Positions 9,428 to 33,398 of a DNA stretch of 33,398 nt are shown here, piece by piece. Under the pieces are notes generated by a model. The model worked only from the letters and a program-made list of their open reading frames with translations, did not search any database and was not told the origin of the DNA. The stretch lies in NCBI GenBank assembly GCA_017471765.1, contig JAFURT010000029.1, positions 1 through 33,398 on the forward strand, written 5' to 3'. The stretch is from Clostridia bacterium (GTDB taxonomy: Bacteria; Bacillota; Clostridia; Oscillospirales; Acutalibacteraceae). Every line of letters starts with the position of its first letter. Position 1 is the first letter of the stretch. The position numbers and the translations under genes were made by a program.

Positions 9428-9634
9428 TCAGTCGGCAAACAGCAGACAGCCTGCCTCGCGGAATTGCCTGATTTTTTCATCCAGAAGAGCCGTATCGCAC
9501 CGCAGTTTCCGTGCGATACAGGCCTTGCAGAGAAAGTCCTTCTCGGCCGCCCTGTCCATCAGCTTTTTATACAGGCCCACATCATCCCGGCCCAGTAACT
9601 GCCCACAGGCGGCGCAGTGGCTACTATCACACAT
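9428..9634 (-). CDS. Small cysteine-rich (zinc-ribbon-like) protein
   Basis: This 68-residue protein has two CxxC knuckles (C7-C10 and C36-C39) plus C2, C46 and C63, the arrangement expected for a zinc ribbon. It is charged, has no signal peptide or membrane segment, and should be cytoplasmic. Its start lies inside the 3' end of the GH27 gene (8-nt overlap), so it was probably kept in this operon on purpose; the ribosome binding site (ggtaaaag) is weak and coupling to the upstream stop is likely. Function is not recognised: nucleic-acid or protein binding are both possible. The Cys pattern argues against a chance frame. Confidence 0.65.
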   Translation of the reverse strand: MCDSSHCAACGQLLGRDDVGLYKKLMDRAAEKDFLCKACIARKLRCDTALLDEKIRQFREAGCLLFAD

Positions 9635-10745: not shown

Positions 10746-10783
10746 AATACAACCCTCTTACATAAAATCAATCAAATTGGCTT

Positions 10784-11794: not shown

Positions 11795-11834
11795 ATACGC
11801 TCATATCCTTTCGGGAGATTGGAAGCCGACGTTG

Positions 11835-15298: not shown

Positions 15299-15313
15299 AC
15301 GGACAGCCTCCGT

Positions 15314-17413: not shown

Positions 17414-17427
17414 GTGCCATTCCCTCC

Positions 17428-18351
17428 TTATTCCTTAATACCGGACGTAGCCATGGTATCAATAATCTTGGTTTGGTTGATAATAAACACCGTTGCCGGT
17501 ACCAGCAGCATCAGCACACCTACCGCCTGTGCCGCACCCTGACGGATCAGACCGCCGGTGGTAATCTGGCTCAGGGCATAGGGCAGGGTCTTCAGGTTTT
17601 CCTGGTACACATAGGCGGCGTTGTTCTGGTTCCACAGCTGCTGGAACATCAGAATAAGCACCGTCAGGTAGGCGGGCTTGGACATGGGCATGATGATCCG
17701 CCAGTAGGTGGTCAGCTCGGAGCAACCGTCGATGCGAGCCGCCTCGATCAGAGAGTCGGGGATGGTCCGCATGTAGTTAATCATAATGAACAGACCCAGC
17801 GAAGCACCCATAGAGGGGATGATCGCCGCCAGATAGGTGTCCAGCCAGCCCAGCCAGGAAATCGTCAGGTAGTTGGCGATATCGTTGACCGAGGCCACAA
17901 ACATCAGGGAGAAGGTGATCATGGTGTTGATGGTCTTACGGCCGATGAACTTCACCTTAGCCAGAGGATAGGCGGCCAGCGAGGCCAGGATGATGTGACC
18001 GAAGGTGGTGGTCAGGGTGATGAACAGGGTGTTGAAAGCGTACCGCTCAAAGGGCACCCACGTGGTCTTCATCAAGCTGAACAGCATGGTAAAGTTGTCC
18101 AGCGTGGGATGAGAGGGCAGGATGGTGGGCGGGTAATAGAACAGCTCGTTGAGCGGCTTCAGGGACATACCCACCGACATAATCAGCGGCAGGGCGCTGA
18201 AGGCACCGATAAGGGCCAAAAACACAAACACAATCACATCGCCGTAACGCTTCCGGTTACCTTTAGCCCGGCGGATGCGGCTGGAGCGACGGAATTTTAC
18301 CTTCGGCGGATTTTCCGTCAGGGGGGTGGAAACTGCCATTTGTTTTGCCAT
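17428..18351 (-). CDS. Carbohydrate ABC transporter permease (MalG/LplC type)
   Basis: This 307-residue permease has six predicted helices and the EAA-type loop EAARIDGCSELTTYWRIIMPM. A GTG at 18360 would extend it by three residues and overlap the previous gene, but the ATG at 18351 has a well-placed aaggtgg and is preferred; one base then separates it from the upstream TGA, so the genes are coupled. It forms the inner membrane channel with the next-upstream permease. Confidence 0.93.
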   Translation of the reverse strand: MAKQMAVSTPLTENPPKVKFRRSSRIRRAKGNRKRYGDVIVFVFLALIGAFSALPLIMSVGMSLKPLNELFYYPPTILPSHPTLDNFTMLFSLMKTTWVPFERYAFNTLFITLTTTFGHIILASLAAYPLAKVKFIGRKTINTMITFSLMFVASVNDIANYLTISWLGWLDTYLAAIIPSMGASLGLFIMINYMRTIPDSLIEAARIDGCSELTTYWRIIMPMSKPAYLTVLILMFQQLWNQNNAAYVYQENLKTLPYALSQITTGGLIRQGAAQAVGVLMLLVPATVFIINQTKIIDTMATSGIKE

Positions 18352-18352
18352 A

Positions 18353-19276
18353 TCAGCCACCCACCTTTCGCAGGAATTTCAGCACCAGCTGGTTAATGCC
18401 CACCATGAACAGGAACATCAGCACCGCAATAGCGCAGGCATAGCCACGCTCCAGACGGAAGTTGCTGTAGTCCATCATGTGGGTCATCATCAGATGACCG
18501 GCATAGTTGGTGCTGGGGAAGCCGGCCAGGTGAATAGACACCTGGGTGTTACCGAACATGGCGGTAATCTGCAGCACCGCCGCCGTCATCATGTGGGGCG
18601 CCATCTGGGGGATGGTGATGTACCACAGCTCCTGCATACGGTTCTTCACGCCGTCGATAGCACCTGCTTCATACAGCTGGGTGTCCACCGAGGACATACC
18701 GGCGCGCAGGGTCAGGAAGCCGGCACCCATACTCATCCACAGCTGCACAATAATAATCATCGGCAGGATGTAAGCGTCGGTAGTGAACCAGTCGATGGGG
18801 GAGGAAATCAGATTCAGCCGCAGCAACAGGCTGTTGGCGTAGCCATACATATCGCCGCTGAAAATGATGGACCAGATGGTATACACTGTACCGGAGATGG
18901 TGGGGGCGTAGAACACAAAGGTCAGCACAGCCCGCATCCCCTTGCCCAGCTCGTTGATGGCCCAGGCCACAAAGAAGGACAGGGAATAGCCTACCACGCC
19001 GGTAATCAGGGCAAAAATGATGGTATTGCGAATCGCAATAGCAAATACCTCATCATTGACGAAGAGGTTGGTATAGTTACGCAGACCGACGAACACAGGG
19101 GCCTGCAACACATCGTACTGCGTCAGGCTGAGTACCATGGAGACCACCACCGGCAAAGCCGTGAAGGCCAGAAAAATGATCATATAGGGGGTGATCATTG
19201 CATAAGCCGCCCGCTTTTTCCATATTTCCCGTCCAATGTCGGATAAACGGGTCTTCGGCTTAGAGCCTGTTTTCAT
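18353..19276 (-). CDS. Sugar ABC transporter permease (MalF/LplB type)
   Basis: This 307-residue permease has six predicted helices and the EAA-type loop YEAGAIDGVKNRMQELWYIT. An upstream in-frame ATG (19381) would add 35 highly charged residues and overlap the solute-binding gene; the ATG at 19276, preceded by aaggaaagg about 11 nt away, gives the usual N-terminus (MKTGSKPKTRL... then first helix) and is chosen. The gap to the upstream solute-binding gene carries an 8-bp hairpin. Coupled with the permease that follows. Confidence 0.92.
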   Translation of the reverse strand: MKTGSKPKTRLSDIGREIWKKRAAYAMITPYMIIFLAFTALPVVVSMVLSLTQYDVLQAPVFVGLRNYTNLFVNDEVFAIAIRNTIIFALITGVVGYSLSFFVAWAINELGKGMRAVLTFVFYAPTISGTVYTIWSIIFSGDMYGYANSLLLRLNLISSPIDWFTTDAYILPMIIIVQLWMSMGAGFLTLRAGMSSVDTQLYEAGAIDGVKNRMQELWYITIPQMAPHMMTAAVLQITAMFGNTQVSIHLAGFPSTNYAGHLMMTHMMDYSNFRLERGYACAIAVLMFLFMVGINQLVLKFLRKVGG

Positions 19277-19296
19277 CTCAAACCATTCCTTTCCTT

Positions 19297-19318
19297 GACA
19301 GGGCCGGAGAGCCCTGTC
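19297..19318 (-). other. Intergenic hairpin between solute-binding and permease genes
   Basis: GACAGGGC (19297-19304) and GCCCTGTC (19311-19318) form an 8-bp stem with a 6-nt loop, with no T run. Placed between a binding-protein gene and its permease, such stems commonly protect the upstream mRNA end and set the excess of binding protein; that role here is inferred. Confidence 0.6.
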
Positions 19319-19337
19319 TGATGGGCGCTTGTAGGCT

Positions 19338-22229
19338 TTACTCCAAGCCGAACTCCTGCCGCTTTTTCCGGATTTCTTCATTGATGCTGTCTACGGCATC
19401 CAGGATGGTATCCCGGGGACTGGCACCGCTGTTGATGACGGATTTGATGGCGTTGTCCACCGTACGGCCCACATAGTAGCTACCGGGCACCTCGGGAATG
19501 CCAACGACCCATTTCCACTGCTCGGAAATCTGACCGGCGATACTCCGCTTCCAGGAAATCTGCTTCATTGCTTCCAGGTTAGCGGTGGGCCAACGGGCGG
19601 ATTCGCCCTGGATGGCCTCAATCTCCTCGGCATAGCCGATCTGCGCCTCGGTGCTGGTCCACCACTTGAGGAACTCCCAGGCGGCGTCCTCGTCCTTGGC
19701 GTTCTTGAACTGCAGGACGCTGGTGATGGTAGATGCCGCCGTACGGTCAACCGTACCGTCGGCCTTAACCGTGCCGGGCAGGGGCATCATGGACCACAGA
19801 CCGTCAATTTCCGGTGCAGCCACCACCAAGGTGTTATAGAAGGTATAGGAGGTCATCAGCACCGGAGATTCGCCGGTGCGGAACCGGTTAATGGGGCTGT
19901 AGGTCTTGGCGGCGTTGTACTTGGTGTACAGCTCCGACCAGCGGATGAATGCATCCACCGCCTCCAGCGAGCCGAGGGCGCTGTATCCATTCTCGGTATA
20001 GACCTGGCCGCCACTCTGCAACAGATAGGCAGAGAACATGGCGTTCAGGTCGGTGGAAATACTACCCGACTGCACACCGGTGGGAGAGGGGAAGCCCACA
20101 TCCAGACCGTTTTCCTGCAGGATGGGAATCATATCGTACAGCTCATCCCACGTGTTGGGGGCTTTCAGCCCCAACTCCTCCAGCACATCGGTGCGGTAGA
20201 ACATCATCATGAAGTGCTGCTGCTCCGGCAGACCGTACAGGGCATCGCCAAAGGACTGGGATACCATGGCGCTCTCAGCGAAGCGGGCGGTAATCTCCTT
20301 CACATCCGGGAACTCGTTGAGGTTCTTAAGGGCTCCACGCAGACCGTATTCGACCGGCCGTGCCTGTCCCTGGAATACCGCCACATCCGGGCCGGCGCCG
20401 CTGGCCACCGCACGCATCAGCACGTCGTCAGCCACCAGGCGCACCTCCAGGCCGATGCCGGTGTTGGGGGTAAAGCTACCGTCGGCCAGCGTCTTGATAA
20501 CCATAGCCTGGTCACGGCCGGAGGCCATCCACAGGGTCACGTTGCGGGTTACCTGGCTGGCGTCGGTCACACCCTCGATGGAATAGTAGTCACTAACAAA
20601 GGAAATGAAGAACGCCCGTATCGTGGAAGACAGATTCTCGAAGAAACCGGCCTTCGCTTTGGGCAACGCCGAGGCTGCCGAGGACAGGGACACATAGTCA
20701 ATGAGCAGGGGCACCTGGCTGGCGGAGGCCATCCAGGAGGCCAGCGAGTTCAGGTTGTCGCTGAGCGTGGAGATACGCTCCGGAATAGAGTCCGGGTCAT
20801 CCAAAAAGGCATTCAGGGACACCAGCACGGTGTCTATGTATACCGACTGCTCACCTTTTTCGCCGGAAAGGCCGACCATGCGGGCTTCAGCCGCCTCCAG
20901 ACGCTGGATATTCGTCCGGATCGTATCATACATATCGGGGATATTGCCTTCCAGGTTGTAGTCACGATAGGTGTCCGGGAAGGAGCCGGTAATGGTGCGG
21001 ATCTTACGGCACAGCGCGTTAAGCTCCTGGATAGCCGCACTGACATCCTCCAGCACCGCCGACATCTCGTCGTTCTGAGAAACGGTCATACGCAGGGTAT
21101 GTGTGCCCTCGGTCAGATACAGCAGGCAGGGCTCCTCCGCGCCACCCAGGGTGGTCACCTGCCACTGCAGGTCGAAGGAAACAGCCATGTTCTCCGCTTC
21201 GGCAAAGGGAATCTCCCCATCCACCGTCAGCGTACGGAATGCGGTACCGCCGGATACGAAATCCTGCTTACAACGGAGATCAAACCGATACAGACCCGTT
21301 TCGGGTACGGTCACATCCCACTCAAGCCACTGGTGCTTGGCCGCCCAGCCGTTACCGCCGATGGTGTTCAGCAAAATCTTCGCCTCATCAAAGGGCTGGG
21401 TAATGCAGGAGGTGCGGTCCTCGACGGCATACAGTACACTGCTGGACTTGCGGTCAGCATCCTCGCCCTGCAGGATGATAGGCTTGACATCTGCCTCCAC
21501 TTCCTTGGCGCCCTCGGCCTTCCAGCCGGCCAGCACCTCAGCATAGCCGGAGGTCTGCTTCAGCTGGCAGAAGGTCAAAGCGGACAAAGCCAACGGCTCA
21601 CTGGCATCCGCCAGCGTCAGAGTATGCTCGCCGGCGGTGAGGTACAGCTGAAGGGCATCGTCGCCATAGCCGGCACCGCTAATCAGCGGCGCCGTCTGCC
21701 ATGCGGGGGCTTCAGTCTGGGGACGGCGGAACTCATTGCCGGAGGCACTGTACAGCTTATCCTTTCCGTCATTGACCCACACACGGTTGAATACCACCGC
21801 ACGTGCCTCGGAATAAGGCAGAGCCCCATCCAGGTACAGAGCACGCTCGATGGTGTTGCCCTTACCTTCCAGGGGATAATAACTGGCGGTAACGGTATAC
21901 AGACCGGTCTCAGGCACGGTGAAGCTCCAGGTGACCGACCCATCAGCCGCTGTAATCAGCGCTTCACGGCCGTCGGTGGTCTGTACCACCGGGGCGTCGC
22001 CCTCATAGGTTGTGGGGGCAAGCACATCCACTGTGATGGCCTGCTCCGGACGAGCCGCCTGGGCATGTTGCGCCAAATACGCACTCATCAGCGGAAGCGA
22101 AGAAACGGATTGCTCCGTTTCCGGCAACTGTGTCTGGGTATTTGGCTCCGTCGCTTCTGTGGTGGCAGCATAGGCCGCATTCCCGCACAGCAGACAAAGT
22201 GCCAGCATCCATACAATGGTCTTTTTCAT
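19338..22229 (-). CDS. Very large extracellular solute-binding protein with carbohydrate-binding-like modules
   Basis: This 963-residue protein is about twice the usual length. Signal peptide (1-21, AYA cleavage) without a canonical lipobox: the Cys residues at 12 and 15 are preceded by Leu. Two CBM6/35-like beta-sandwich modules follow (about 70-225 and 245-400), both with the VPETGLY strand and a 'GEHTLTL/GTHTLRM' end strand, then a helical segment (about 400-550) and a family 1 solute-binding domain (about 563-963; NTWDELYDMIPIL, FLKWWTSTEAQ). It probably captures polysaccharide or long oligosaccharides at the surface and hands them to the permeases downstream. The upstream in-frame start at 22391 lacks a signal peptide at its N-terminus; the ATG at 22229 is chosen (gaaaggg upstream). 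Confidence 0.9.
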   Translation of the reverse strand: MKKTIVWMLALCLLCGNAAYAATTEATEPNTQTQLPETEQSVSSLPLMSAYLAQHAQAARPEQAITVDVLAPTTYEGDAPVVQTTDGREALITAADGSVTWSFTVPETGLYTVTASYYPLEGKGNTIERALYLDGALPYSEARAVVFNRVWVNDGKDKLYSASGNEFRRPQTEAPAWQTAPLISGAGYGDDALQLYLTAGEHTLTLADASEPLALSALTFCQLKQTSGYAEVLAGWKAEGAKEVEADVKPIILQGEDADRKSSSVLYAVEDRTSCITQPFDEAKILLNTIGGNGWAAKHQWLEWDVTVPETGLYRFDLRCKQDFVSGGTAFRTLTVDGEIPFAEAENMAVSFDLQWQVTTLGGAEEPCLLYLTEGTHTLRMTVSQNDEMSAVLEDVSAAIQELNALCRKIRTITGSFPDTYRDYNLEGNIPDMYDTIRTNIQRLEAAEARMVGLSGEKGEQSVYIDTVLVSLNAFLDDPDSIPERISTLSDNLNSLASWMASASQVPLLIDYVSLSSAASALPKAKAGFFENLSSTIRAFFISFVSDYYSIEGVTDASQVTRNVTLWMASGRDQAMVIKTLADGSFTPNTGIGLEVRLVADDVLMRAVASGAGPDVAVFQGQARPVEYGLRGALKNLNEFPDVKEITARFAESAMVSQSFGDALYGLPEQQHFMMMFYRTDVLEELGLKAPNTWDELYDMIPILQENGLDVGFPSPTGVQSGSISTDLNAMFSAYLLQSGGQVYTENGYSALGSLEAVDAFIRWSELYTKYNAAKTYSPINRFRTGESPVLMTSYTFYNTLVVAAPEIDGLWSMMPLPGTVKADGTVDRTAASTITSVLQFKNAKDEDAAWEFLKWWTSTEAQIGYAEEIEAIQGESARWPTANLEAMKQISWKRSIAGQISEQWKWVVGIPEVPGSYYVGRTVDNAIKSVINSGASPRDTILDAVDSINEEIRKKRQEFGLE

Positions 22230-22341
22230 AACCGTTATCAACCCTTTCGTCATTATCCGAAGCGGTAAAATTCCGTTCCAGTGTGCTAGTAGAAATCCAA
22301 ACCTTCTTTGGGTGCCTACTGGCAAACTGGCTCCCGGCAAG

Positions 22342-22373
22342 GTCGGCGGAGCCGGAGCACCAGCTCCGCCGAC
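22342..22373 (-). other. Intergenic hairpin between the two solute-binding genes
   Basis: GTCGGCGGAGC (22342-22352) pairs with GCTCCGCCGAC (22363-22373): an 11-bp stem with a 10-nt loop and no T run. It starts 19 nt after the lipoprotein gene's stop. It likely stabilises the upstream message or reduces expression of the larger protein; function is inferred. Confidence 0.6.
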
Positions 22374-22391
22374 AGCCTGAGGGAAAGCCAC

Positions 22392-23783
22392 TTATTTGGC
22401 ATCTTCCGTATTAAATACCTCGTCTATACGTGCCTGGATAGCCGCATTGGTAGCTTCGATTACTGCGGCGGGGGTGGACTTACCGGAGAGAATGGGATAA
22501 TAAATCTCATTGACCTCGGTAGCGCCCAAATTCAGCATGTTGTTCAAAGAAGCCTTCTCCGGCATCTTAGCACCCATGGTGTACACGAACTCCGCATCCT
22601 TACGGCTATTGTAGGAGGAGGCATGCAGAGCGTCGATGAGCTCATCCAGATCTTCCTCGTAGTAGGCGTCGCCACGGGAGGGATCCCAGGTGGTCAGCGC
22701 ATCCATCCAGAACTTGGCCAGCAGGTCGGCCTCGTAGTCGTTGGTGGTGGGAATGCCCCAGATGGCGAAGCCGTCACGCATGTTGTAGTAGGTACCGCAA
22801 GAGGGACCAATGGGGAAGGTCACCGGTGCATACTCGGTGAAGCCGATCTTCTTCAGTGTGGACTGCTGCTGGGCAAACATGAACAGCAGGTTGCCATCGG
22901 TGAAGGCGTTGAGCGCATCATCCTTGGCCGTGGTACCACCGGTACGATCGCCCAGAATGGAGCCATCATTGATGGCCATATCCCGTATCAGGGTCAGCAG
23001 CTCCAGCGCATTCTTGTTGGTGCTGGGATGGTTGTAGGCATTGTAATACTTGCCGCCATCCTCTACCCACAGATAGGCGGAGTTGGCGTAGCGCAAGCTG
23101 TCGGGCAGCATGAAGGCAGAAACGCCGTAGGTGCCCTTAGCGGGATCCGTGGCACGCTTACAGTAGTCGCGGAAGGTGTTCCAATCCCACTTGCCTTCCA
23201 AAGCCAGCTTCTGGGGATCCTCCAGACCCAGCTCCTGCACCATACGGGTATTGTACAGCAGCATCATGTAGGGGGTGGGATTAGCCGTGGTGGGGAACAG
23301 ACCGTAGTTGACGCCCTTGTACACGGCGTAGCTGGTGTTCCAGCGGTTGTCCTTGTTTTCACCGATGTAGCTGTCGGTGGGAGCCACCAGATCCTGCTTG
23401 ATCCAGCTCAGGATGCTGCTGGAGTGCTGCAGGGCAATGTTGGAGTAGGTGGTGCCGGACAGGGCCGCCTGCACGAACTCATCGAAATACTGGCTCTCGG
23501 GCAGGATGACCCACTCGACGTTACAGTTGTATTTCTTTTTCGCTTGCTCCAAAGCATAGTACTTAGCATCGCCAAGCTCGCTATTGCCCAGCTTCGGGAT
23601 GGTGGTATCCGTCCAGATGCTGACCTTCAGCGTAGCGCCGTCAAAGCCTTCTACCTCGCCGTTTTCGCCGCTGCCGCTGTTTTCGCCACCGCCGCCGTTA
23701 CAGCCGGCCATGGCACCGAGAACGAGGGTCAGCATGATAGCCAAAGCCATCAGCCGACACAGCCAATGCAGTTTTTTGTTCAT
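22392..23783 (-). CDS. Sugar ABC transporter solute-binding lipoprotein
   Basis: This 463-residue lipoprotein has a clear lipobox (MAGC, Cys at 28) followed by a Gly/Ser/Glu flexible linker (29-45). The mature part fits family 1 extracellular solute-binding proteins: TLKVSIWTDTTIP, a NWDTFRDYCKRATDP-like helix (here WNTFRDYCKRATDP), and a C-terminal region with ALTTWDPSRGD. It presents an oligosaccharide to one of the two permease pairs. RBS aaggaagg sits before ATG; the preceding gene ends 35 nt upstream. Two solute-binding proteins for two permease pairs suggests either two substrates or two size classes of one glycan. Confidence 0.92.
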   Translation of the reverse strand: MNKKLHWLCRLMALAIMLTLVLGAMAGCNGGGGENSGSGENGEVEGFDGATLKVSIWTDTTIPKLGNSELGDAKYYALEQAKKKYNCNVEWVILPESQYFDEFVQAALSGTTYSNIALQHSSSILSWIKQDLVAPTDSYIGENKDNRWNTSYAVYKGVNYGLFPTTANPTPYMMLLYNTRMVQELGLEDPQKLALEGKWDWNTFRDYCKRATDPAKGTYGVSAFMLPDSLRYANSAYLWVEDGGKYYNAYNHPSTNKNALELLTLIRDMAINDGSILGDRTGGTTAKDDALNAFTDGNLLFMFAQQQSTLKKIGFTEYAPVTFPIGPSCGTYYNMRDGFAIWGIPTTNDYEADLLAKFWMDALTTWDPSRGDAYYEEDLDELIDALHASSYNSRKDAEFVYTMGAKMPEKASLNNMLNLGATEVNEIYYPILSGKSTPAAVIEATNAAIQARIDEVFNTEDAK

Positions 23784-23818
23784 AGAGATCGCCTTCCTTT
23801 CGTATCGCTTGTTTTATA

Positions 23819-26800
23819 TCAGGGATTGCTCACTGTCAGCAGCCGGGGCAACGCACCGTTGTAGCGCTCCGGGCAATAGGTGATGCGAATCTCCTTGCCG
23901 GGGGTGAAGATGGCCGCCAACTGCTCGGCCGTCTTGGCACGAGCATAGAAAGCGGGACCGTTCAGTTCAATGCTGGTGGTTTTCGCCTGATTATCCAGCT
24001 CAAAGCGGGTGCCGTCGGCAAACTCAATAATGCCGTTGGAGCTCCCCTTGGCGGATAGCGAGGGCGGGGTAAAGGACTTGATGACACCGGTCTTTTCGCC
24101 GTAAACGGACTCGCACTTGACCACCAGGTTGTTGCTGTCGAAGGTCAGGGTGACGAAATCACCGGCACGAGGCGGGGTGCTGGTGGTCTGATCGCTACCA
24201 TCCAACCGGCGGGTGTATTCGCAACTGCCGGACACCATAAACTGCTCGTACTGCGAGTAGTTGGAGATGGTGGGATCCTGCACCGACAGCTGAATGGTGG
24301 AGCTACCGCCATTGGCATAGGCACGGCCGGAAACCGTGGTGTACTTTTTAGCACCGGGGACAACCAGCGAAACCTCCACCGTGGCCTTGCCGCCCTTGGC
24401 GGTGACGGTGCCCTTGGAGGACGGCTTCAGGATGAAGCTGTTCTCGCCCACCGAGGCCAGCTCATACTGGCCGTTCTTGATGTTGGTAAACTCCATGGTG
24501 ACCGTCTGCTTCTTCTCGGTCACAAAGGAGAAGGCAAACTCGCTCTTGCCGACCTTGGTCAGGGTGATCTGCACGCAGTCGGTATCCTTCTTCAGCGACA
24601 GGGATACCGGGTAACGGCCCAGCTTACCGGAGCCGGTTACCAGATACTTGGCGGGCAACACCTGAGAAATCTCACCGGCCAACAGTCTGTAAGCGGTCTT
24701 GTAATAGCCCGCATTCATCAGGTCCACAGCCAGACGGGTGATTGAATCCTCGCCGCCGTTCTTCTCGATGTAGTCCTCCAGCTGGTTGGCGGTGATCGCC
24801 TGCTGGGAGATCCACAGGTTCTGCAGACGAGCCTGCTTGTAGGTGGTGGTCAGCCCATTGAGCTGGCCGGTGGTCTGGGCAAAGGGACGCATCACCTTGA
24901 AACCACGTACCGTGCAGGTGCTGTTGAAGACGATGCGCACGTAGTAGGTGCTCTTACCCTTGCTCTGTGCAGAAAAATCATAGCGGGTGGTGATGTTGCT
25001 GTTGAAGCGGTCGTTGTGGTGAATGTACTCACCCTCGCCCAAGTCAGTCAGCGAATTCAGGTCGGGGCCTGCCAGAACCTGAATATTGGAGGTGGTACCG
25101 GTCTTGCCGTATACATCAATGTACAAACCGTTGTCAAAGGGCTGACCGTCCTTCAGCTCCAGGGTGATCACGCCCGGGTTAGAAGCGTTGTTTACCTTCA
25201 GCTCGCCGTCAACCTGCTTGAGATTCTGGTAGGTCACGCCCTTGGCCGGATTCTTCAGCGGCAGGTCTGCCGCATCCCGGTTGAAGTCCACATCCAGGAT
25301 GTTGACATCGAAATGCTCCGGTGCGTCGATAGCGGTGTTCTCCAGCTTATCGATATCCCGCAGATTCTGGGCGGTGTTGTACTCGTCCTTATCGTTGAAC
25401 AGGGTCAGGAACTCCAGACCGTTCTGATAGGCCATCTTGGTGAACTTCTGAATCACGCCTTTGGGGTTGTGGATCGCCATCTCCACGTTCACGCAACCGG
25501 TACGGCCGTAGGCGGCCTTGTACTGATAGAAGCGGACGGGGTCGAAGTACATATCCTCACTGCTGGAGTAGAAGCCATCGCCCACGCCGGACTGCCAGCC
25601 GGAGATGGTCAGGTCGCCCCAGGAGGGATTCTGGTTGATCCACTGTACGTTGTGGGAGAAGATGTGGTCGATGGTCTGGGTATTCGGCAGGTCAATCTTA
25701 TTCCCGGAAACCTGCACAGCATCGTGGCCCATAGCCAGAATATAGGCATCGGCCAGCATCTGGTTGTAGGCGGCGTGCCAGTCGGTCAGCCAGCGCTTCT
25801 CCTTGAAGGACAGGCCGTCCTTGGGATCCAGCGTCACGCCGTCCTTCTTAGCGGCTTCCACCAGTTCGGGGTGGAAATCAGCACCGTCCATGGTATTGAA
25901 ATCCTCATAGCCGGTGATGGTGCCGAAGCCCTTATAGCACACGCCCCACTCCATAACCAGATCGATGGGCTGGGTCTGCTTGCCGCGGGCGCGCAGGAAG
26001 GACAGGGAATTGGCAAAACTGGAGAAAAAGCTCTTGATCTTGCTGACAGCGGCGTTGTTCAGTACCGAACTGCCGGTGGTGACCCACTGGGTGTTGCTGT
26101 ACACATTGGGGGTGGAAGCCGAATACAGATCCAGCGCACTGTTGTACAGCACCTGGCTGTATTTCAGGTCGGAGAAATTACCGCCCAAACCGTCGGGGGA
26201 GTAGGGGGAGTTGCTCCAATACATCGCAGACATAATCTGCAGACGGGTGCCCGCCTGCTCCGCCGCCTCAATGTAGCTTTTGAGGGTAGCGGCAGCGTCT
26301 TTTTCGTTCAGGTTCATATACTTCAGGCTCAGCATGATGCCGATCTCGTACATATTGTAATCCGACGGCCAGTTCTGGATGTTGGCCAGTGCATTGGTGG
26401 TGTTGATACCGTTGTAGAAGTTGATGCCCAGCTTGGAATAGACCTTCTCGCTCTCCATCAACTCATAGAACGTGGTATACGCAATGACCTCCGCAATGTG
26501 GAAGGTGGTGTTTGCCTCGTTGACAATCTTTACCTCTACATCCTTCGGGCAGGGGATAGCGGCACGGTCCACAGCGATGAAGTAGCTGTTGGGCGCCGAG
26601 GCAATCTGCTCGTATGTACGGAAATACACAGGGGTGTTGTTGACATACACGGTGTAGCCGAAGGCCTGGGTCGTAGGCTCGTGAATTTCCTTGATCTGCA
26701 ACAGCACAGGCTGTTTCTTATCCGCCGGCTCCGGGTCTGCTACATTCAGCTTGAAGGTAGCGGTAGCGCCCTTGCCCTCAAAGCGGATAACCGGATAGGT

Positions 26801-27229
26801 GTCCGACAGCGTACCGGTGGCGGCGACCAGCGAGGTCTTTTGGGCTCCGCCGGACAGATGCAGCTTATGCCCGGACTCATCGTCTTTATTGCCGATGAGG
26901 ACACGGTCGGCTACTGCCTGGATGATGTCATCGGCGTCGGGGAGAGTGGAGAGCTCCTGTTTGTCCGAAACGCCGTTACCACCGGTGGTGGTTGTGTTTC
27001 CTCCGTCATTGGTGCCGGAGATGGTGGTGGATTGGTTTCCGTCCCCCTTGACGATGGAGGACATAGCATCGAGAATATCCGGGTCAGTCACGGGTACATC
27101 TTCCCCTTTCGTTACACTGCTACCGAACAGGCCATTATCGTCAATGACATAGACAAACAGCGTTCCTGCCATGCAGAGCCACACGGCCGCTGCTGCAGCA
27201 ATCGCAATTAGTTTATGGGCTTTTTTCAT
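23819..27229 (-). CDS. Very large extracytoplasmic protein of unknown function
   Basis: This 1136-residue protein has an N-terminal hydrophobic segment (7-28) that may remain as an anchor, then a Gly/Thr/Asn-rich linker (about 62-90). A beta-rich region (130-290) precedes a central region (about 290-650) with alternating strands and helices and segments like LVMEWGVCYKGFG, VNVEMAIHNPKG and LEFLTLFNDKDEY, which resembles a TIM-barrel glycosidase fold; no family was recognised. A beta-sandwich (about 670-800), a helical stretch and a beta-rich C-terminus (880-1136) follow. Acidic residues at strand ends make a hydrolase plausible but unproven. Its ATG overlaps the stop of the small membrane protein (ATGA) with a strong aggagggtgacc RBS. 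First large gene before the solute-binding proteins. Confidence 0.88.
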   Translation of the reverse strand: MKKAHKLIAIAAAAAVWLCMAGTLFVYVIDDNGLFGSSVTKGEDVPVTDPDILDAMSSIVKGDGNQSTTISGTNDGGNTTTTGGNGVSDKQELSTLPDADDIIQAVADRVLIGNKDDESGHKLHLSGGAQKTSLVAATGTLSDTYPVIRFEGKGATATFKLNVADPEPADKKQPVLLQIKEIHEPTTQAFGYTVYVNNTPVYFRTYEQIASAPNSYFIAVDRAAIPCPKDVEVKIVNEANTTFHIAEVIAYTTFYELMESEKVYSKLGINFYNGINTTNALANIQNWPSDYNMYEIGIMLSLKYMNLNEKDAAATLKSYIEAAEQAGTRLQIMSAMYWSNSPYSPDGLGGNFSDLKYSQVLYNSALDLYSASTPNVYSNTQWVTTGSSVLNNAAVSKIKSFFSSFANSLSFLRARGKQTQPIDLVMEWGVCYKGFGTITGYEDFNTMDGADFHPELVEAAKKDGVTLDPKDGLSFKEKRWLTDWHAAYNQMLADAYILAMGHDAVQVSGNKIDLPNTQTIDHIFSHNVQWINQNPSWGDLTISGWQSGVGDGFYSSSEDMYFDPVRFYQYKAAYGRTGCVNVEMAIHNPKGVIQKFTKMAYQNGLEFLTLFNDKDEYNTAQNLRDIDKLENTAIDAPEHFDVNILDVDFNRDAADLPLKNPAKGVTYQNLKQVDGELKVNNASNPGVITLELKDGQPFDNGLYIDVYGKTGTTSNIQVLAGPDLNSLTDLGEGEYIHHNDRFNSNITTRYDFSAQSKGKSTYYVRIVFNSTCTVRGFKVMRPFAQTTGQLNGLTTTYKQARLQNLWISQQAITANQLEDYIEKNGGEDSITRLAVDLMNAGYYKTAYRLLAGEISQVLPAKYLVTGSGKLGRYPVSLSLKKDTDCVQITLTKVGKSEFAFSFVTEKKQTVTMEFTNIKNGQYELASVGENSFILKPSSKGTVTAKGGKATVEVSLVVPGAKKYTTVSGRAYANGGSSTIQLSVQDPTISNYSQYEQFMVSGSCEYTRRLDGSDQTTSTPPRAGDFVTLTFDSNNLVVKCESVYGEKTGVIKSFTPPSLSAKGSSNGIIEFADGTRFELDNQAKTTSIELNGPAFYARAKTAEQLAAIFTPGKEIRITYCPERYNGALPRLLTVSNP

Positions 27230-27489
27230 GCTTGGTCACCCTCCTGTTCGTTGGCTTCGCCTATTGTGTCAGTTTCTTCTGCAGTGGACTGCAAGACGGC
27301 CGGTGCGGAGGCTTCCTCCTCTTCTGCGGCAGGGGCAGCAGGCCCCTCTGCCTGCAAAACCCGCAGAGCCAGGATGGCGAAAACCACCAGGCCCAGTATA
27401 GCCATCAGACCGATACCGCCGCCCAACAGCCACTTGTACAGCGCAACATTGGCGGTCAGCAGAGAGAGTTCACAGATCAGTATGTTCAT
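27226..27489 (-). CDS. Small single-pass membrane protein with acidic Pro/Ala tail
   Basis: This 87-residue protein has one transmembrane helix (about 20-44, LLGGGIGLMAILGLVVFAILAL) followed by a roughly 40-residue tail rich in Ala, Pro and Glu (EEEEASAPA). No known domain was recognised. It is real rather than chance: it has an RBS (aaggaaagg), sits in line in the operon, and its TGA overlaps the ATG of the 1136-residue gene by ATGA, so the two are translationally coupled and may form a complex. It could be a scaffold or anchor for that partner or for the transporter. Confidence 0.75.
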   Translation of the reverse strand: MNILICELSLLTANVALYKWLLGGGIGLMAILGLVVFAILALRVLQAEGPAAPAAEEEEASAPAVLQSTAEETDTIGEANEQEGDQA

Positions 27490-27588: not shown

Positions 27589-29622
27589 TTATGCGTGGCG
27601 CTTGCGCAGAGCGATGCTCATACCGCCAGCCAGCACGAGCACGACGAACACAGCATAGTTCACCGGCTCGCCGGTAACGGGGCTGCCGTTGCCGGGCTTA
27701 TTGGCAGAGCCCTGGTTGCCCTCTCCGGCGGCACCGCCGTTGACAGGGCCGGTACCGGCCACACCGGAGAATTTCACCGACTTGATGCCGGTGTAGCCGG
27801 GGTGGTCGTATACGGTATAAGCAATCTTCACAAACACCTGGCGGTTACCCTTCACCGCCTCGGTCAGGTCAGCCGTATAGGTCTTGTCAGGCACAGATTT
27901 GAAATCCTGTTCCGACGGATAATCCTCATAGGACAGCCGGTCGCCGTCAAAGGTCTTGACAGCCACCCAGTCAGCCGCAGTGATATCTGCATAGTTGTCA
28001 CCGGCGGCCACATAGATGGTAGCCTTGGGGGCTTGCGTCCATTCGGGGTTGTAGCCCTCACGGGAGGAGATACGGCCGACCATTTCAAAAGACAGGGAGG
28101 ACAGCTTCTTGCCGTCGACCGAGCCGATCTTGTACACAACATAAGAATCGGCGGCGCCGCCGGTGGTGCCCAGGAAGCGGCCGTAGGCGCTGAGCACACG
28201 AGCCTTGTTGGCATCCACCATGTTCCGGAAGGTGGACAGCATCTTGTCAGCAGTCACGCCCTCGGTAAGTGCGGCAAAATTGTCCTTCACGGTGAAGGGC
28301 TCGGCAGGGCCTTCGTCCTCCGGCTTCTCGGCGGGCGGGGTGCCGGCGTTGTCACCGGTATTATCGCCGTCCACATCGCCGCCGGTGGTGTCATCCCCTT
28401 CAGGGGCGCTGCTTTCCGCAGTGGCATCGATGGACAGCGTGTTGAGGGCCGCATAGAAGCGGATGTCAAACAGCTTCCACTCCACCTTGACATACACACT
28501 TTCGGCATCGCCAATAGCCTCAGTCAGGTTGGCGGTATAGGTCTTGGGTGCATCCTTCGACCAACTGCTGTTGTTGGGATAATCCGCAATGTCCACCACG
28601 GTGTAATCCCAGTTCTGTACGGCACTGCCCCAATCCTCACCGTCGGTGGAAACCCACACGCCGGCATAGCAGTTGTCTACGCTCCAATCGGCGTTGTAGC
28701 CGTTGCGGAACATAAAGCGACCGGTAGCGGTCAAGGTAATCTGGTCTGCGTTGCCGGGAATATCCAGCTTGTAGACCACATTCACGGCTTTACCGGTGCT
28801 GCTGCCATCGCCGGTCAGAAAACGGCCGTTGGAGCTGGCAACCATGGCTTTTTCGGAAGCATACAGCTTGTCGAACTTGGCCTTGAGGTCGCCAGCCACA
28901 ATTTCGCTGGCAGAAGCGCTGTAATCATGGGTCAGCAGACTGCCGCCGGTGAAGGTTTCCTTCTCGTCGTCCTCGCCGCCGGGGGTGTTGCCACCGGCCT
29001 GGCCGGTGGTGGCGGTGATGGTCAGGTTCTTCAGGGCAGCATAGAAGCGGACGTCGTACAGTTTCCACTCCACCTTGACGTACACGCTGGTGGCATCGCC
29101 AATGGCGTTGGTCAGGTTGGCGGTGTAGGTCTTGTCCGGGTCGTTCTTCCAGCTGTCATTGTTGGGATAATCTATAGCCTCAACCACGGTGTAATCCCAG
29201 TTCTGCACGGCGGCACCCCACTCGACTCCGTCGGTGGAGACCCACACGCCGGCGTAGCAGTTCTCCAGCTTCCAGCCGTGGTTATAGCCGTTGCGGAACA
29301 TAAAGCGACCGGTAGCGGCCAGATTCAGCGCCTGCGTGTTGGCAGGAACATCAATCTTGTAAACCACGTTTACCACTTTGCCGGTGCTGCTGCCGTCGCC
29401 CGTCAGAAAACGGCCGTTGGAGCTGGCAATCATCGCCTGCGTGGAGGAGTGCAGTTTGGGGAAGGTGGACTTCATCGCATTCGCCGCAACCTCACTGCCG
29501 AGAGCACTGTAATTCTCCTCCAGCAGGGTGACCTCTTCAGCAGAAGCGGTCAGCGGCATCACGCTGAGCAGGGCGGTGGCCAGCAGGGCCACCGTCGCCA
29601 GCAGAGAAAGCAACTTTTTCAT
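27589..29622 (-). CDS. Surface protein with three copies of an unrecognised domain
   Basis: This 677-residue protein has a signal peptide (1-28, ASA cleavage) and three copies of one beta-rich domain (about 31-204, 228-402, 442-621). These are separated by Gly/Asp/Glu-rich linkers. Each copy shows VVYK(I/L), GR(F/I) then R(N/E)GYN, W near the middle, a DYP motif, TYTA(N/D)LT and a final VYVKV- or VFVKI-type strand. The C-terminus has a possible sortase-type signal: SPVTG (647-651), a hydrophobic helix (654-671) and RKRHA; SPVTG departs from LPXTG, so wall attachment is uncertain. The fold resembles a jelly-roll carbohydrate-binding module, but this is inference. RBS agaaaggag is strong; the gene follows its single-domain relative by 45 nt. 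Confidence 0.9.
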   Translation of the reverse strand: MKKLLSLLATVALLATALLSVMPLTASAEEVTLLEENYSALGSEVAANAMKSTFPKLHSSTQAMIASSNGRFLTGDGSSTGKVVNVVYKIDVPANTQALNLAATGRFMFRNGYNHGWKLENCYAGVWVSTDGVEWGAAVQNWDYTVVEAIDYPNNDSWKNDPDKTYTANLTNAIGDATSVYVKVEWKLYDVRFYAALKNLTITATTGQAGGNTPGGEDDEKETFTGGSLLTHDYSASASEIVAGDLKAKFDKLYASEKAMVASSNGRFLTGDGSSTGKAVNVVYKLDIPGNADQITLTATGRFMFRNGYNADWSVDNCYAGVWVSTDGEDWGSAVQNWDYTVVDIADYPNNSSWSKDAPKTYTANLTEAIGDAESVYVKVEWKLFDIRFYAALNTLSIDATAESSAPEGDDTTGGDVDGDNTGDNAGTPPAEKPEDEGPAEPFTVKDNFAALTEGVTADKMLSTFRNMVDANKARVLSAYGRFLGTTGGAADSYVVYKIGSVDGKKLSSLSFEMVGRISSREGYNPEWTQAPKATIYVAAGDNYADITAADWVAVKTFDGDRLSYEDYPSEQDFKSVPDKTYTADLTEAVKGNRQVFVKIAYTVYDHPGYTGIKSVKFSGVAGTGPVNGGAAGEGNQGSANKPGNGSPVTGEPVNYAVFVVLVLAGGMSIALRKRHA
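28417..29532 (-). repeat. Tandem duplication of domains 1 and 2 within the surface protein gene
   Basis: Domains 1 (29011-29532) and 2 (28417-28941) are alike at DNA level; for example 28793-28845 and 29381-29433 differ at 3 of 53 positions. Domain 3 (27760-28299) is clearly more distant. This fits a recent internal duplication of one domain. Confidence 0.8.
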
Positions 29623-29667: not shown

Positions 29668-30591
29668 TTACTTCTTAGCGCCCTTCTTGAACAGCAGGAA
29701 CACAATAGCGCCAGCTGCGGCCAGGATCAGCACCGCAACGATAACCACAATCAGCACGATGGGGGCGCCGGCGGGCTCGCTGTCACCGTCTGCATCCGTG
29801 TCGGTATCGACATCCACATCGGAGTTGTTGTTGTTCACGTCAGCAACGGTGGTGGTGGTCGTCTGCACAGCCTCGGTGGCGGTGGTGGTGGTCGCCTCCG
29901 TGGTGGTAGCGGCCTCGGTGGTCGTGGTGGTGGGGGCTACCGTGGTGGTGGTCGTGGGGGTCTCGACCAAACCGGAACCGCCGGTCACATTCCCCTCAAT
30001 CTTCACGTTCAGCACGCTGGAGAACATGGGGACGTCAAACACATCCCAAGCCAGACGCACATAGACAACAGAATCGTCGCCGGCAGCAGAGGTCAGGTCA
30101 GCGGTATAGGTCTTGACAGGCAGATCCTTGTAGGCGTTAGCATCGCCATAGGTGGCCATATCCACACGCTCGCCCTCCCAGGTCTTTACCTTGTAGAAGG
30201 TGGTGCCGTCGAAGGAAACCTCAACCGTACCGCTGGGGGTCTTGGTCCAATCCGGGTTGTACCCGTCACGGGAAGCAAAGTGGCCCTTCACGGTGATGCC
30301 CAGAGAATCAAACTTGCCGCCCTTAGCGTCAACCTTGTATACCAGGGAAGCCGTCTTTCCGCCGCCATCGGCACAGCAATAGCCCTTGCCGAAGGAGTAC
30401 TTGATACGGACGTTCTCGCCGGACTCCAGGTTGTACAGTCTCTTCAGGAGGCTCGCCGGGGTGTCGGTATCGCAGGAAGCAAAATCATCCTCGATAACCA
30501 GCGTCTGCGCAGCAGACACGGACATGGGTACTACCAGCACGGACAGGATCAGTGCCAGCATAGCGATCAAGCTTGCAACTTTTTTGAACAT
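29668..30591 (-). CDS. Membrane-anchored surface protein with one copy of the same domain and a Thr-rich stalk
   Basis: This 307-residue protein has a signal peptide (1-27), one domain (about 29-203) matching those of the next gene (LVYKVD, HFASRDGYNPDW, TYTADLT, VVYVRL), a threonine-rich stalk (about 211-249) and an Asn/Asp-rich segment (252-270). It ends in a transmembrane helix (276-300) with FKKGAKK. There is no LPXTG-like motif, so it is membrane- rather than wall-anchored. The stalk would hold the domain away from the membrane and may be glycosylated (inferred). It is the first gene after the AraC-box promoter (30751-30779), with RBS agaggg, and is co-transcribed with the three-domain gene 45 nt downstream. 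Confidence 0.9.
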   Translation of the reverse strand: MFKKVASLIAMLALILSVLVVPMSVSAAQTLVIEDDFASCDTDTPASLLKRLYNLESGENVRIKYSFGKGYCCADGGGKTASLVYKVDAKGGKFDSLGITVKGHFASRDGYNPDWTKTPSGTVEVSFDGTTFYKVKTWEGERVDMATYGDANAYKDLPVKTYTADLTSAAGDDSVVYVRLAWDVFDVPMFSSVLNVKIEGNVTGGSGLVETPTTTTTVAPTTTTTEAATTTEATTTTATEAVQTTTTTVADVNNNNSDVDVDTDTDADGDSEPAGAPIVLIVVIVAVLILAAAGAIVFLLFKKGAKK

Positions 30592-30638: not shown

Positions 30639-30728
30639 CTATTTTGCGGATTTCGAAACCGGCAAAATCCCTTGCATTTCGGGCGAAATCATGGTATAAT
30701 GCCCTAAAGCCTTGGTAATTATGCCCAT
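30639..30728 (-). other. Possible 29-codon upstream ORF in the operon leader
   Basis: Within the leader, an ATG (30728-30726) inside the conserved motif opens 29 codons ending in TAG (30641-30639), 47 nt before the ATG of the first structural gene. There is no good ribosome binding site, and the matching leader at 33012 has a different coding outcome, so it may be chance. Confidence 0.2.
30672..30700 (+). promoter_or_regulatory. Promoter of the AraC-family regulator gene
   Basis: TTGCAT (30672-30677), a 17-bp spacer and TATAAT (30695-30700) preceded by TGG give a near-consensus extended promoter. A start near 30707 makes a leader of about 130 nt that runs across the opposing operon promoter and its 43-bp box. 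Confidence 0.75.
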
Positions 30729-30750
30729 ATTTCTTAAACCACGCATCATA

Positions 30751-30779
30751 AGCATAGCATAAGACGTAAAAAACTGCAA
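30751..30779 (-). promoter_or_regulatory. Promoter of the large leftward operon
   Basis: On the minus strand TTGCAG (30779-30774), a 17-bp spacer and TATGCT (30756-30751) form a promoter with a weak -10, as expected for an activator-dependent one. The start would be near 30744, giving a leader of about 150 nt. The -35 is the end of the conserved 43-bp box. Confidence 0.7.
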
Positions 30780-30815
30780 TTCTATTATCGTGGTATTTTC
30801 TTCTAATTTGTTTCC
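30773..30815 (-). promoter_or_regulatory. Conserved 43-bp box (left copy), probable AraC-family operator
   Basis: Minus-strand sequence from GGAAACAAATTAG through AAAATACCACGATAATAG to TTGCAGT. It matches the right copy at 32924-32966 in 41 of 43 positions. A weak direct repeat (AnAnTAG) recurs at a 21-bp offset, about two helical turns, as AraC-type dimers often use. Position upstream of and overlapping the -35 fits an activator site. Confidence 0.75.
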
Positions 30816-30838
30816 ACTTGCAGAAAGGAGGCGTAAAA

Positions 30839-31705
30839 ATGGCGCAAAATTCGTATCATCGTCATGTCTATTTGGAGGATATCACCAACGAGCACTTGTA
30901 TCTCTGCCATTACGGCTGGCACAAATGCGAGCCGGGGCATTTTTTCGGGCCGTCTATCCGTGATTTCTATTTGATCCACATCGTAACAGATGGCCGGGGA
31001 ACCTTCACGGCACGAGGCAAGCAATACGAACTGCACGCAGGGCAAAGCTTCATCATCCGCCCCGGCGAGATCACCAAGTATTTGGCCGACGCGCAGGAGC
31101 CGTGGACGTATTATTATTTTTCTTTTTCCGGCACACTGGCCCCTACCTTGCTGAACGCTACCGGCTTTAAAGATGACAAGATGGTTGTTGACATACTCAC
31201 CGCCCCGTTGGAAAAAATCATCCAAAAGGCAGTTAAACGGGCGGATGACTGTCACAACAAAATGGTACATGGCTTATCCGTGCTGATGTCTCTTATCAAT
31301 GTATATGCACAAGAGGCAGACGCGGACGCAACCCCTAGGCTGGAGGATTCCCTGGTTGCCAAAGCCAAAGCGTACATCGATTTCAACTTCTCCGGCAAGC
31401 TGACCATTGCTCAGATTGCCGCCGATCTGAACGTGAGCCGCAGTCACCTGTACAAAACCTTCAAAGACGAGACCGGGTTGTCTCCTTGCGAGTATCTTTC
31501 CCACTGCCGTATTCAAATGTCTGCCAAACTGCTGGAGGATACCGATTTGTCTATCCGGGAGATTGCCAATGCAGTGGGGTTCGATACCTACTCTGCCTTT
31601 TTCCGGGCGTTCAAGCTGTTCAGCGGGATGTCGGCCATCCAGTATCGTAAGCTGGCCGCCGCAGGAGCGTTGCCTGCCGGCTGGCAGAAAAAGGAGACCC
31701 TATGA
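30839..31705 (+). CDS. AraC-family transcriptional regulator
   Basis: This 288-residue protein has an N-terminal cupin-like sensor domain (about 25-150: FYLIHIVTDGRGTF, FIIRPGEITKY, WTYYYFSFSG) and a C-terminal double helix-turn-helix (about 187-288: LTIAQIAADLNVSRSHLYKTFK, then IREIANAVGFDTYSAFFRAFK). The sensor probably binds a sugar from the imported glycan. A TTG seven codons upstream is in frame, but the agaaaggaggcg site points to the ATG at 30839. The two 43-bp boxes flanking this gene and the next are its likely targets. It overlaps the cysteine desulfurase by ATGA. Confidence 0.93.
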   Translation: MAQNSYHRHVYLEDITNEHLYLCHYGWHKCEPGHFFGPSIRDFYLIHIVTDGRGTFTARGKQYELHAGQSFIIRPGEITKYLADAQEPWTYYYFSFSGTLAPTLLNATGFKDDKMVVDILTAPLEKIIQKAVKRADDCHNKMVHGLSVLMSLINVYAQEADADATPRLEDSLVAKAKAYIDFNFSGKLTIAQIAADLNVSRSHLYKTFKDETGLSPCEYLSHCRIQMSAKLLEDTDLSIREIANAVGFDTYSAFFRAFKLFSGMSAIQYRKLAAAGALPAGWQKKETL

Positions 31706-32829
31706 AGCCGTGCATCTATGCCGACCACGCCGCCACAACAAAACTGAATATGCACGCCTTTGAGGCGATGAAGCCTTATCTGCTGGAGCAGTACGGCAAC
31801 CCCTCCCAGCCTTACTCGCTGGGACGCCGGGCTCATCAGGCACTGGAGGAAGCCAGGGCCGCCATAGCGGCCTGCATCGGTGCCGACCCGGACGAGGTGG
31901 TTTTTACCGGCGGCGGCACAGAAAGTGACAACTGGGCGATTAAAGGCAGTGCGCTGGCGATGCCCTCCCCCGGGACAATCCTCACAACCCGGACAGAGCA
32001 CCACGCTGTGCTGGCCTCCTGCCGGGAGCTGGAGGCACTCGGCTGGGCTGTCACCGCTCTGCCGCCGGATGGAGACGGTACCCTTTCTTTGGACACGCTG
32101 GAAGCCGCCCTGTCACCGGCCGTGCGGCTGGTATCGGTGATGACCGCCAATAACGAGCTCGGGACGATTCAGCCCATTTCCGCACTGTGTGAGGTGGCTC
32201 ACCGACAGGGAACGGTGTTTCACACCGATGCCGTAGCGGCGGTGGGACACATTCCTGTAGATGTGACCGCCTGGGGGGTGGATTTGCTGTCCGCTTCCGC
32301 CCATAAATTCGGCGGCCCCAAGGGGGTCGGCTTTCTGTACATACGGAAAGGGACACCACTGTCCCCCTACCTTGTGGGCGGCGCTCAAGAGGCCGGGCGG
32401 CGGGCCGGAACCGAGCAGGTGGCAGGTGCTGTGGGGATGGCGGTGGCCTTACGGGAACGCTGTGTCTCTATGGCGGTTGACGCCGGCCATCTAAAGGGCT
32501 TAGAGGCGCAGATTTTAGCCGTTTTGCACCAGGCTGGGGTGGATTTCCGCCTGAACGGCGGTGACTACCGCATCCCCGGCCTGCTGAACCTTTCTTTCCG
32601 GAACGAGGATGGGGAGCGTCTTCTCCATCGGCTGGATTTACAGGGCATTTACGTGTCCACCGGGGCGGCCTGCGACAGTCGGCGCACCCGAATCTCTCCT
32701 GTGCTGGAAGCCATCGGTTTGGAGGAAATATACAGCCGTGGCACCATCCGTCTTTCGCTGGGACCGGATAACACGGCCGAAGAGGCGGTCTGTATCGCCG
32801 AGGCTTTGGTCGGCCTCCTGACGGAGTAA
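31702..32829 (+). CDS. Cysteine desulfurase (NifS/IscS-like aminotransferase class V)
   Basis: This 375-residue PLP enzyme should move sulfur from cysteine for Fe-S cluster or thiocofactor synthesis. It shows the N-terminal YADHAATT, the PLP lysine K202 in SASAHKFGGPKG, EHHAV around H100, HTDA with D176, RRAGTEQV and the catalytic cysteine C324 in STGAACDS. The residue that is usually Gln after HTDAV and contacts the PLP ring is Ala (A179), so activity may be altered. Translationally coupled to the AraC gene by ATGA, with RBS aaaggag. No scaffold gene (iscU/nifU/mnmA) is adjacent; its place in a sugar regulon is unexplained. Confidence 0.9.
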   Translation: MKPCIYADHAATTKLNMHAFEAMKPYLLEQYGNPSQPYSLGRRAHQALEEARAAIAACIGADPDEVVFTGGGTESDNWAIKGSALAMPSPGTILTTRTEHHAVLASCRELEALGWAVTALPPDGDGTLSLDTLEAALSPAVRLVSVMTANNELGTIQPISALCEVAHRQGTVFHTDAVAAVGHIPVDVTAWGVDLLSASAHKFGGPKGVGFLYIRKGTPLSPYLVGGAQEAGRRAGTEQVAGAVGMAVALRERCVSMAVDAGHLKGLEAQILAVLHQAGVDFRLNGGDYRIPGLLNLSFRNEDGERLLHRLDLQGIYVSTGAACDSRRTRISPVLEAIGLEEIYSRGTIRLSLGPDNTAEEAVCIAEALVGLLTE

Positions 32830-32842
32830 CAAAAACTCTCGT

Positions 32843-32868
32843 AAAAAGAGCCTTTTTGGGCTCTTTTT
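32843..32868 (+). terminator. Rho-independent terminator after the cysteine desulfurase gene
   Basis: AAAAAGAGCC (32843-32852) and GGCTCTTTTT (32859-32868) form a 10-bp stem with a 6-nt loop, followed by more T-rich sequence. It closes the araC-desulfurase unit 13 nt after the stop. Confidence 0.85.
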
Positions 32869-32923
32869 GCTTTTGTTGCAGGACATTTTCGCTGATGACA
32901 AGTCGTTATGTGTGATGAAAAAT

Positions 32924-32966
32924 GGAAACAAATTAGTATAAAATACCACGATAATAGAATTGCAGT
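32924..32966 (+). promoter_or_regulatory. Conserved 43-bp box (right copy), probable AraC-family operator
   Basis: Plus-strand copy of the box at 30773-30815, in inverted orientation, 41 of 43 positions identical; the two differences lie in the three bases after AATTAG. It ends in the -35 of the promoter for the gene at 33093. Confidence 0.75.
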
Positions 32967-32988
32967 CTTTAATCGGTTGTGCTATTCT
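32960..32988 (+). promoter_or_regulatory. Promoter of the right-arm surface protein gene
   Basis: TTGCAG (32960-32965), a 17-bp spacer and TATTCT (32983-32988). The same -35 and spacing as the leftward operon promoter, though spacer sequences differ, showing that the layout is selected. Start near 32995 gives a leader of about 98 nt. Confidence 0.7.
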
Positions 32989-33005
32989 ATGTAATGTAGG
33001 GTGAA

Positions 33006-33023
33006 AGAAATATGGGCAAATTA
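33006..33023 (+). promoter_or_regulatory. Conserved leader motif shared by both arms
   Basis: AGAAATATGGGCAAATTA here matches AGAAATATGGGCATAATTA on the minus strand at 30734-30716, with one inserted base, at nearly the same distance from the two promoters. It lies within the transcribed leader, so it may act in the RNA or mark a further protein site. Confidence 0.5.
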
Positions 33024-33092
33024 ACGGATTTTGCCTGTTTTCTGTCCTTTTCGAGGACGAGCCCTAAATTTATTACAGAAGGAGACGTATCA

Positions 33093-33398
33093 ATGAAAAA
33101 GCTCTTATCCCTGGTATTGACCCTTGCTTTGATGGCTTCCGCTATTTTCAGCGTGTTGCCCATCGCCGTTTCCGCCGCGGAAACGGGCAGCATTGTCCTG
33201 GTAGACGACAACTACAACTCCGGCACTGCCGCTGTTGGCTCTGCTGATCTGTCTACCGCTTTCCCCAGCATCGTTGCGAACACCAATGCCCGTCTGCTGT
33301 ATGACGGCAACGCAAAAGTTCGTTTTCTGTGCACCACCGGTAGCGGTGTTGTCAGCGCAACCTACAAGGTAGACATCCCCGAGGGGAACCTGGACTCC
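33093..33398 (+). CDS. Secreted protein of the same domain family (3' end outside window)
   Basis: The first 102 residues of a longer protein: a signal peptide (1-29, cleavage near VSA) and the start of the same domain as at 29668 and 27589 (LVDDNY, then a segment ending TYKVDIPEG). RBS agaaggagacg is strong and well placed. An in-frame ATG at 33012 would add 27 residues before the signal peptide and is rejected. It is driven by the right-hand box and promoter, so it is the second arm of the AraC regulon. Confidence 0.85.
   Translation, partial: MKKLLSLVLTLALMASAIFSVLPIAVSAAETGSIVLVDDNYNSGTAAVGSADLSTAFPSIVANTNARLLYDGNAKVRFLCTTGSGVVSATYKVDIPEGNLDS

Follow-up and report, generated by a model that had tools for sequence, protein, structure and literature searches.

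In the classical araC-araBAD layout, the bound regulator also tunes its own gene. In Bacillales, Bacteroides and Enterococcus, L-rhamnose genes are under AraC regulators for which direct-repeat motifs with a 21-bp periodicity have been reported (PMC3870299), and AraC is among the regulator types in Table 2 of the gpPUL paper (PMC5320581). The locus described here lies in a window of 33,398 nucleotides, and its Pfam content includes Melibiase_2, two SBP_bac_1, four BPD_transp_1 and AraC. Its layout suggests that one regulator most likely switches on genes to both sides of it, a large sugar-harvesting cluster to the left and a gene for a related surface protein to the right.

The regulator is a 288-aa AraC-family protein (30839..31705, plus strand) with an AraC_binding and an HTH_18 domain (PF02311, 76.2 bits against a cut-off of 21.1; PF12833, 76.2 bits against 33.6). 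The start of the next gene, encoding a NifS-like cysteine desulfurase (31702..32829, plus strand), overlaps its stop by 4 bases. The desulfurase gene is followed by an intrinsic terminator (32841..32870, plus strand) of 13 pairs, which scores −19.2 kcal/mol with its flanks (z −5.33). The first gene of the left arm encodes surface protein A (29668..30591, minus strand, 307 aa), with one beta-sandwich domain, a Thr-rich linker and, as read by eye, a signal-peptide-like start and a C-terminal hydrophobic stretch. Surface protein B (27589..29622, minus strand, 677 aa) has three copies of the same domain, and the rest of the likely left-arm operon (4508..27489, minus strand) encodes an 87-aa and an 1136-aa protein, two solute-binding proteins, four permeases, an NHL/Yip1 protein, a DUF5696 protein, a GH27-type alpha-galactosidase, a 1031-aa protein and an FAD oxidoreductase. 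The left-arm genes are all read from the minus strand, and 12 of the 14 gaps between them are shorter than 100 nt. The 1136-aa protein (23819–27229) has no Pfam match, and the 1031-aa protein matches neither a Pfam family nor a PDB sequence. Within this arm, 11835–22229 forms a transporter module of a 963-aa solute-binding protein, permeases, the NHL/Yip1 protein and the DUF5696 protein; the solute-binding protein has a long extra N-terminal part, and 88 of the 398 genomes of the family, counting the own one, encode relatives. A strong terminator-like hairpin of 17 pairs (4455–4492) separates the end of the left-arm operon from a converging gene (729–4298) for an 1189-aa protein with Laminin_G_3, metallophosphatase and choline-binding-type repeats, which adjoins a BspA-type leucine-rich repeat protein gene cut off by the contig start. 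The right arm begins with the gene for surface protein C (33093..33398, plus strand), which is cut off by the contig end.

Two 43-bp boxes flank the central genes. The left box (30773..30815, minus strand) precedes the glycan operon of the left arm, and only 23 bp separate it from the start codon of the AraC gene. The right box (32924..32966, plus strand) is identical to it at 41 of 43 positions; numbered along the outward strand, the mismatches are at 14 and 16. The boxes are opposite in orientation and form part of a longer inverted repeat (I1; 69 nt, 84%). As the first-pass annotation had proposed, they bracket the AraC and desulfurase genes and each points outward toward a gene of one surface-protein family. 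In 300 dinucleotide-shuffle trials of the intergenic flanks, the best 43-nt match was 27/43, and a 23-base box core has two exact matches in the window, with none expected even at 3 mismatches. On their inner side the flanking sequences are unrelated (10/43 identical). Near-identical inverted arms around 2.1 kb could also be the ends of an invertible segment, with recombination flipping the AraC-desulfurase segment between them. We consider this exceedingly improbable: we reason that a flip would leave both outward promoters intact and so make no switch, and no recombinase was found among the 20 window proteins scanned with Pfam.

The similarity of the boxes stands out against the divergence of the genes that they precede. 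When proteins and coding DNA were aligned from their starts, identity between A and C was 33/94 for residues and 131/282 for coding bases, and that between B and C 39/96 and 158/288, respectively. The downstream coding DNA is thus only 46–55% identical, compared with 95% for the box, which rules out a recent gene duplication as the source of box identity and points instead to selection or constraint, or to gene conversion, as what keeps the boxes alike. On these comparisons, we take their preservation against the surrounding drift to be real.

Each box carries the −35-like hexamer TTGCAG at its outer end (30779–30774 on the minus strand and 32960–32965 on the plus strand), so that the site overlaps the predicted −35. 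At a spacing of 17 bp in both arms, an extended −10 can be read by eye, TGC-TATGCT on the left (30751..30756, minus strand) and TGC-TATTCT on the right (32983..32988, plus strand). TTGCAG, although a poor match, would serve as the −35 of both outward promoters. A consensus promoter scanner, for which they are too weak, listed neither of them; it found 3 promoter-like sites against 3.4 expected. The left box also contains two −10-like hexamers in the direction of the AraC gene (30783–30788 and 30802–30807, by eye).

The first-pass annotation had stated that the sequence beyond the boxes differs apart from promoter spacing. This holds for the inner side but not for the outer one, where the spacer and −10 part is identical at 14 of 22 positions and two leader stretches are alike between the arms (21/26 and 16/18). 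The first of these contains an identical 14-mer, AAGAAATATGGGCA, at 30722..30735 (minus strand) and 33005..33018 (plus strand; inverted repeat I3), followed in the same order by the 16/18 stretch at 30656..30673 (minus strand) and 33023..33040 (plus strand; I9). This common leader element, overlooked in the first reading, lies downstream of both predicted promoters. No common 14-mer arose between the leaders in 1,000 shuffles, in which the longest shared run was 11.

Because the outward similarity runs through the −10 region and the leader, the whole upstream region is of common origin. This could be a duplicated promoter region of paralogues that gene conversion between inverted copies has kept alike and that needs no common regulator. 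Inverted copies 2.1 kb apart can recombine. Nevertheless, the identity is patchy, high in the box, lower in the spacer and −10 part and reduced to islands in the leader, a pattern that fits site-by-site constraint better, and we regard gene conversion as a very unlikely explanation. The same leaders could themselves be the main control point in place of the boxes, with both arms controlled at the RNA level. In favour of this, AAGAAATATGGGCA occurs in only these two places in the own draft genome with one mismatch allowed, and folding of the right leader is better than that of shuffled sequence (z −2.97, 2/200). Folding of the left leader, in contrast, is not (z −0.85, 41/200), and the two Rfam matches, with E values of 0.28 and 0.77, are far below gathering scores and lie outside the leaders. 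The two leaders have no convincing structure in common, and control mainly through them appears even less probable than gene conversion. A further elaboration, to which we give little credence, is a three-part portable module of AraC box, extended −10 and leader element, in which the regulator would bridge the boxes across the 2.1-kb cassette and the leader would add post-initiation control of the surface glycan-binding proteins.

The link between this regulator and this type of operon recurs in another genus. With E values up to 1e-5, the surface domain was found in 3 of 398 family genomes, namely the own genome and two genomes from two species of another genus (G183 and G317), both of which carry a related operon. 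Identities to its proteins are 25% for the 1136-aa protein, 41–44% for the 463-aa and 50–52% for the 963-aa solute-binding protein, 61–65% for the permeases and 46–50% for the NHL protein. Gene order differs, as surface-type genes come after the 1136-aa gene in G183 and G317 and before it here. In both, an AraC gene 35–36% identical to that of the window, at the protein level, is divergent from the operon's first gene, there the 1136-aa gene. In a tree of 52 rows, the window AraC groups with these divergent AraC proteins with a support of 98/94, under a long-branch warning; the grouping was retained (97/92) after 14 rows had been dropped, and the warning remains in this 38-row tree. Together, the grouping and the divergent placement at related operons suggest that regulator and operon travel together, or at least appear to. 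Protein A has weak matches in two genomes (G001 and G002; E 3.5e-6 to 5.6e-4), mostly over the linker and C-terminal part, and protein B had no match outside the own genome in the genus comparison.

Relatives of the 963-aa solute-binding protein led to 42 stretches of DNA (one of which, L166, is upstream sequence without the gene itself). Of these, only those of G317 and G183 (L114 and L115) have both a match to the 1136-aa protein and a divergent AraC gene; ten others have some AraC-type match and no 1136-aa match. An order-level search found the 1136-aa protein in 3 of 394 genomes, own included. In G183 and G317 its gene has surface-type genes as neighbours, and in a genome of another family (G672) those for GH27 and the FAD oxidoreductase, with differing AraC-type regulators. 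In G672, where the 1136-aa, GH27 and FAD oxidoreductase genes recur together, the regulator is a different AraC-type protein (25% identity over 96 residues), encoded inside the cluster on the same strand, a further argument against a fixed regulator. Of the 520 bases that precede the 1136-aa gene in G672, most of them coding, no near-copy was found in six other stretches (best 21/30). A further genome, G482, has the 1136-aa gene only, with no other window protein matching within 40 kb.

The desulfurase is less closely tied to the regulator. Although the first-pass annotation had described an AraC/cysteine-desulfurase cassette, a desulfurase lies beside the AraC gene at only 1 of 48 distinct other AraC places, among the matches listed (two sets combined, with 1 of 29 and 1 of 20 AraC loci, both matches being the same place, G035:C7). 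On this count we reject a conserved cassette, and with it the desulfurase as the regulator's conserved partner. At G035:C7, the desulfurase is followed by a gene that we take, from its sequence, to be ThiI-like, so that the two are apparently an IscS-ThiI pair. In a genome of the own genus (G009), a 55% identical desulfurase (L113:3303-4427) directly follows a homologue of the 1031-aa protein of the window, in a cluster whose further genes are presumably rhamnose enzymes. NifS-like desulfurases thus lie within sugar clusters in two genomes that belong to the same genus. Its position beside the 1031-aa homologue in G009 suggests that the desulfurase may be part of the glycan locus rather than a partner of the regulator.

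How widely the box itself occurs was assessed in the own and other genomes. In the own draft (1.92 Mb, 78.6% complete), a 22-base box core with up to 3 mismatches occurs in two places, both at this locus. BLAST of 101 bases around the left box likewise gave the two copies as the only strong matches, with five further matches of 14–20 bases (E 0.026 to 2). As this draft is incomplete and its contig stops within the right-arm gene, at 33398, two boxes are a lower bound for the organism. Within the genus, the own genome is the only one of 10 with the box, and the 9 others lack it. Upstream of other AraC genes, 0 of 51 regions exceed 31/43, where starts were extrapolated from alignments, L025 and L060 are one place and a more distant copy could escape at the 29 of 51 AraC loci that span up to about 1.5 kb on each side. 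Viral contigs have no exact match to the box pattern, and GTDB contigs gave no confirmed AraC relative among 15 pattern stretches and no confirmed surface-domain relative among 59.

The box is also absent from the two comparable loci of G317 and G183, where the best matches are 25/43 and 24/43, counting two wildcard positions as matches. Boxes missing from relatives are part of what the first-pass annotation had named as counting against its reading. These two loci share other blocks between the AraC and 1136-aa genes, each single-copy in the stretches searched. The absence is compatible with operator turnover, given that the regulators there are only 35–36% identical to that of the window. 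As it stands, the candidate operator is not validated by conservation. An imperfect 21-bp direct repeat within the box, claimed earlier, proved weak, borderline in the left copy at best and at chance level in the right. For any spacing of 10–25, a 9-base core as good was found in 46% of shuffles of the left box and 96% of the right; with the spacing fixed at 21 bp, cores of 7 to 12 bases gave p 0.03–0.04 on the left and 0.14–0.20 on the right (best 9-base core, 0.03 and 0.14), and the whole overlap is 9/22 identical in each box (p 0.20–0.25). Clear tandem half-sites of the AraC type do not stand out in the boxes.

That G317 and G183 lack the box next to their related AraC genes, and that half-sites are indistinct, would fit an alternative in which another regulator, or several overlapping proteins, would bind the boxes, with AraC incidental or partial and the arms still co-regulated. 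We consider this possible but unlikely: the AraC protein is the only one with regulator domains among the 20 window proteins scanned with Pfam, it is encoded between the boxes and it groups with AraC genes beside related operons, and a regulator of 35% identity could well recognise a different site. The AraC-centred, two-armed regulon of the first-pass annotation is partly supported, by its kept-alike element, predicted outward promoters, central regulator and a link that recurs in another genus. Conservation of the box, the direct repeat and the desulfurase as part of a cassette find no support or less than had been claimed.

Overall, we favour as fairly probable a model where a local glycan regulon has its two operator-promoter sites at the boxes, and where AraC binds both and so activates transcription outward into each arm. 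This regulator, whose gene lies between the boxes and whose N-terminal domain probably holds a sugar, would bind the 43-bp box overlapping the poor −35, and the bound protein would recruit RNA polymerase to the extended −10 promoter. The left promoter would then drive a minus-strand operon of about 26 kb for two surface, perhaps glycan-binding, proteins, ABC uptake, the alpha-galactosidase and other enzymes, and the right promoter the paralogous surface-protein gene. At the left box, AraC would probably also tune its own gene; this autoregulation is predicted because the box ends so close to the AraC start and contains the two −10-like hexamers.

Of the papers listed for this combination of gene families, none is on this locus by title, and several described systems resemble it in part. 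Regulators with AraC-type HTH domains beside surface-protein genes are also represented by the YSIRK-adjacent family TIGR04094, of which the window AraC is not a member (66.2 bits against a cut-off of 200, over the C-terminal HTH part only). With the L-rhamnose regulons, the locus shares an AraC regulator of sugar genes and a motif of about the size of this box (PMC3870299). As in the gpPULs, a degrading enzyme, a transport system and a regulator are clustered, the enzyme here presumably acting on polysaccharide; the locus differs in its two permease pairs and unassigned surface beta-sandwich proteins, and the paper concerns other organisms (PMC5320581). Here the regulator of an uncharacterised locus for glycan uptake is given a short, testable candidate operator, and the surface proteins, which perhaps bind glycans, are tied to the same predicted switch as the transporter. 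The closest likeness is to the AraC/XylS activators of sugar operons, with the same AraC_binding and HTH domains, a regulator gene divergent from the operon, a predicted site overlapping a −35-like hexamer and more than one transcription unit with one site, whereas here the 21-bp tandem half-sites are weak and the second arm is a surface-protein gene. This type of circuit is already well known, and the locus is best read as an ordinary Gram-positive PUL circuit, in which the boxes would be the operator-promoter pair of a local AraC activator.
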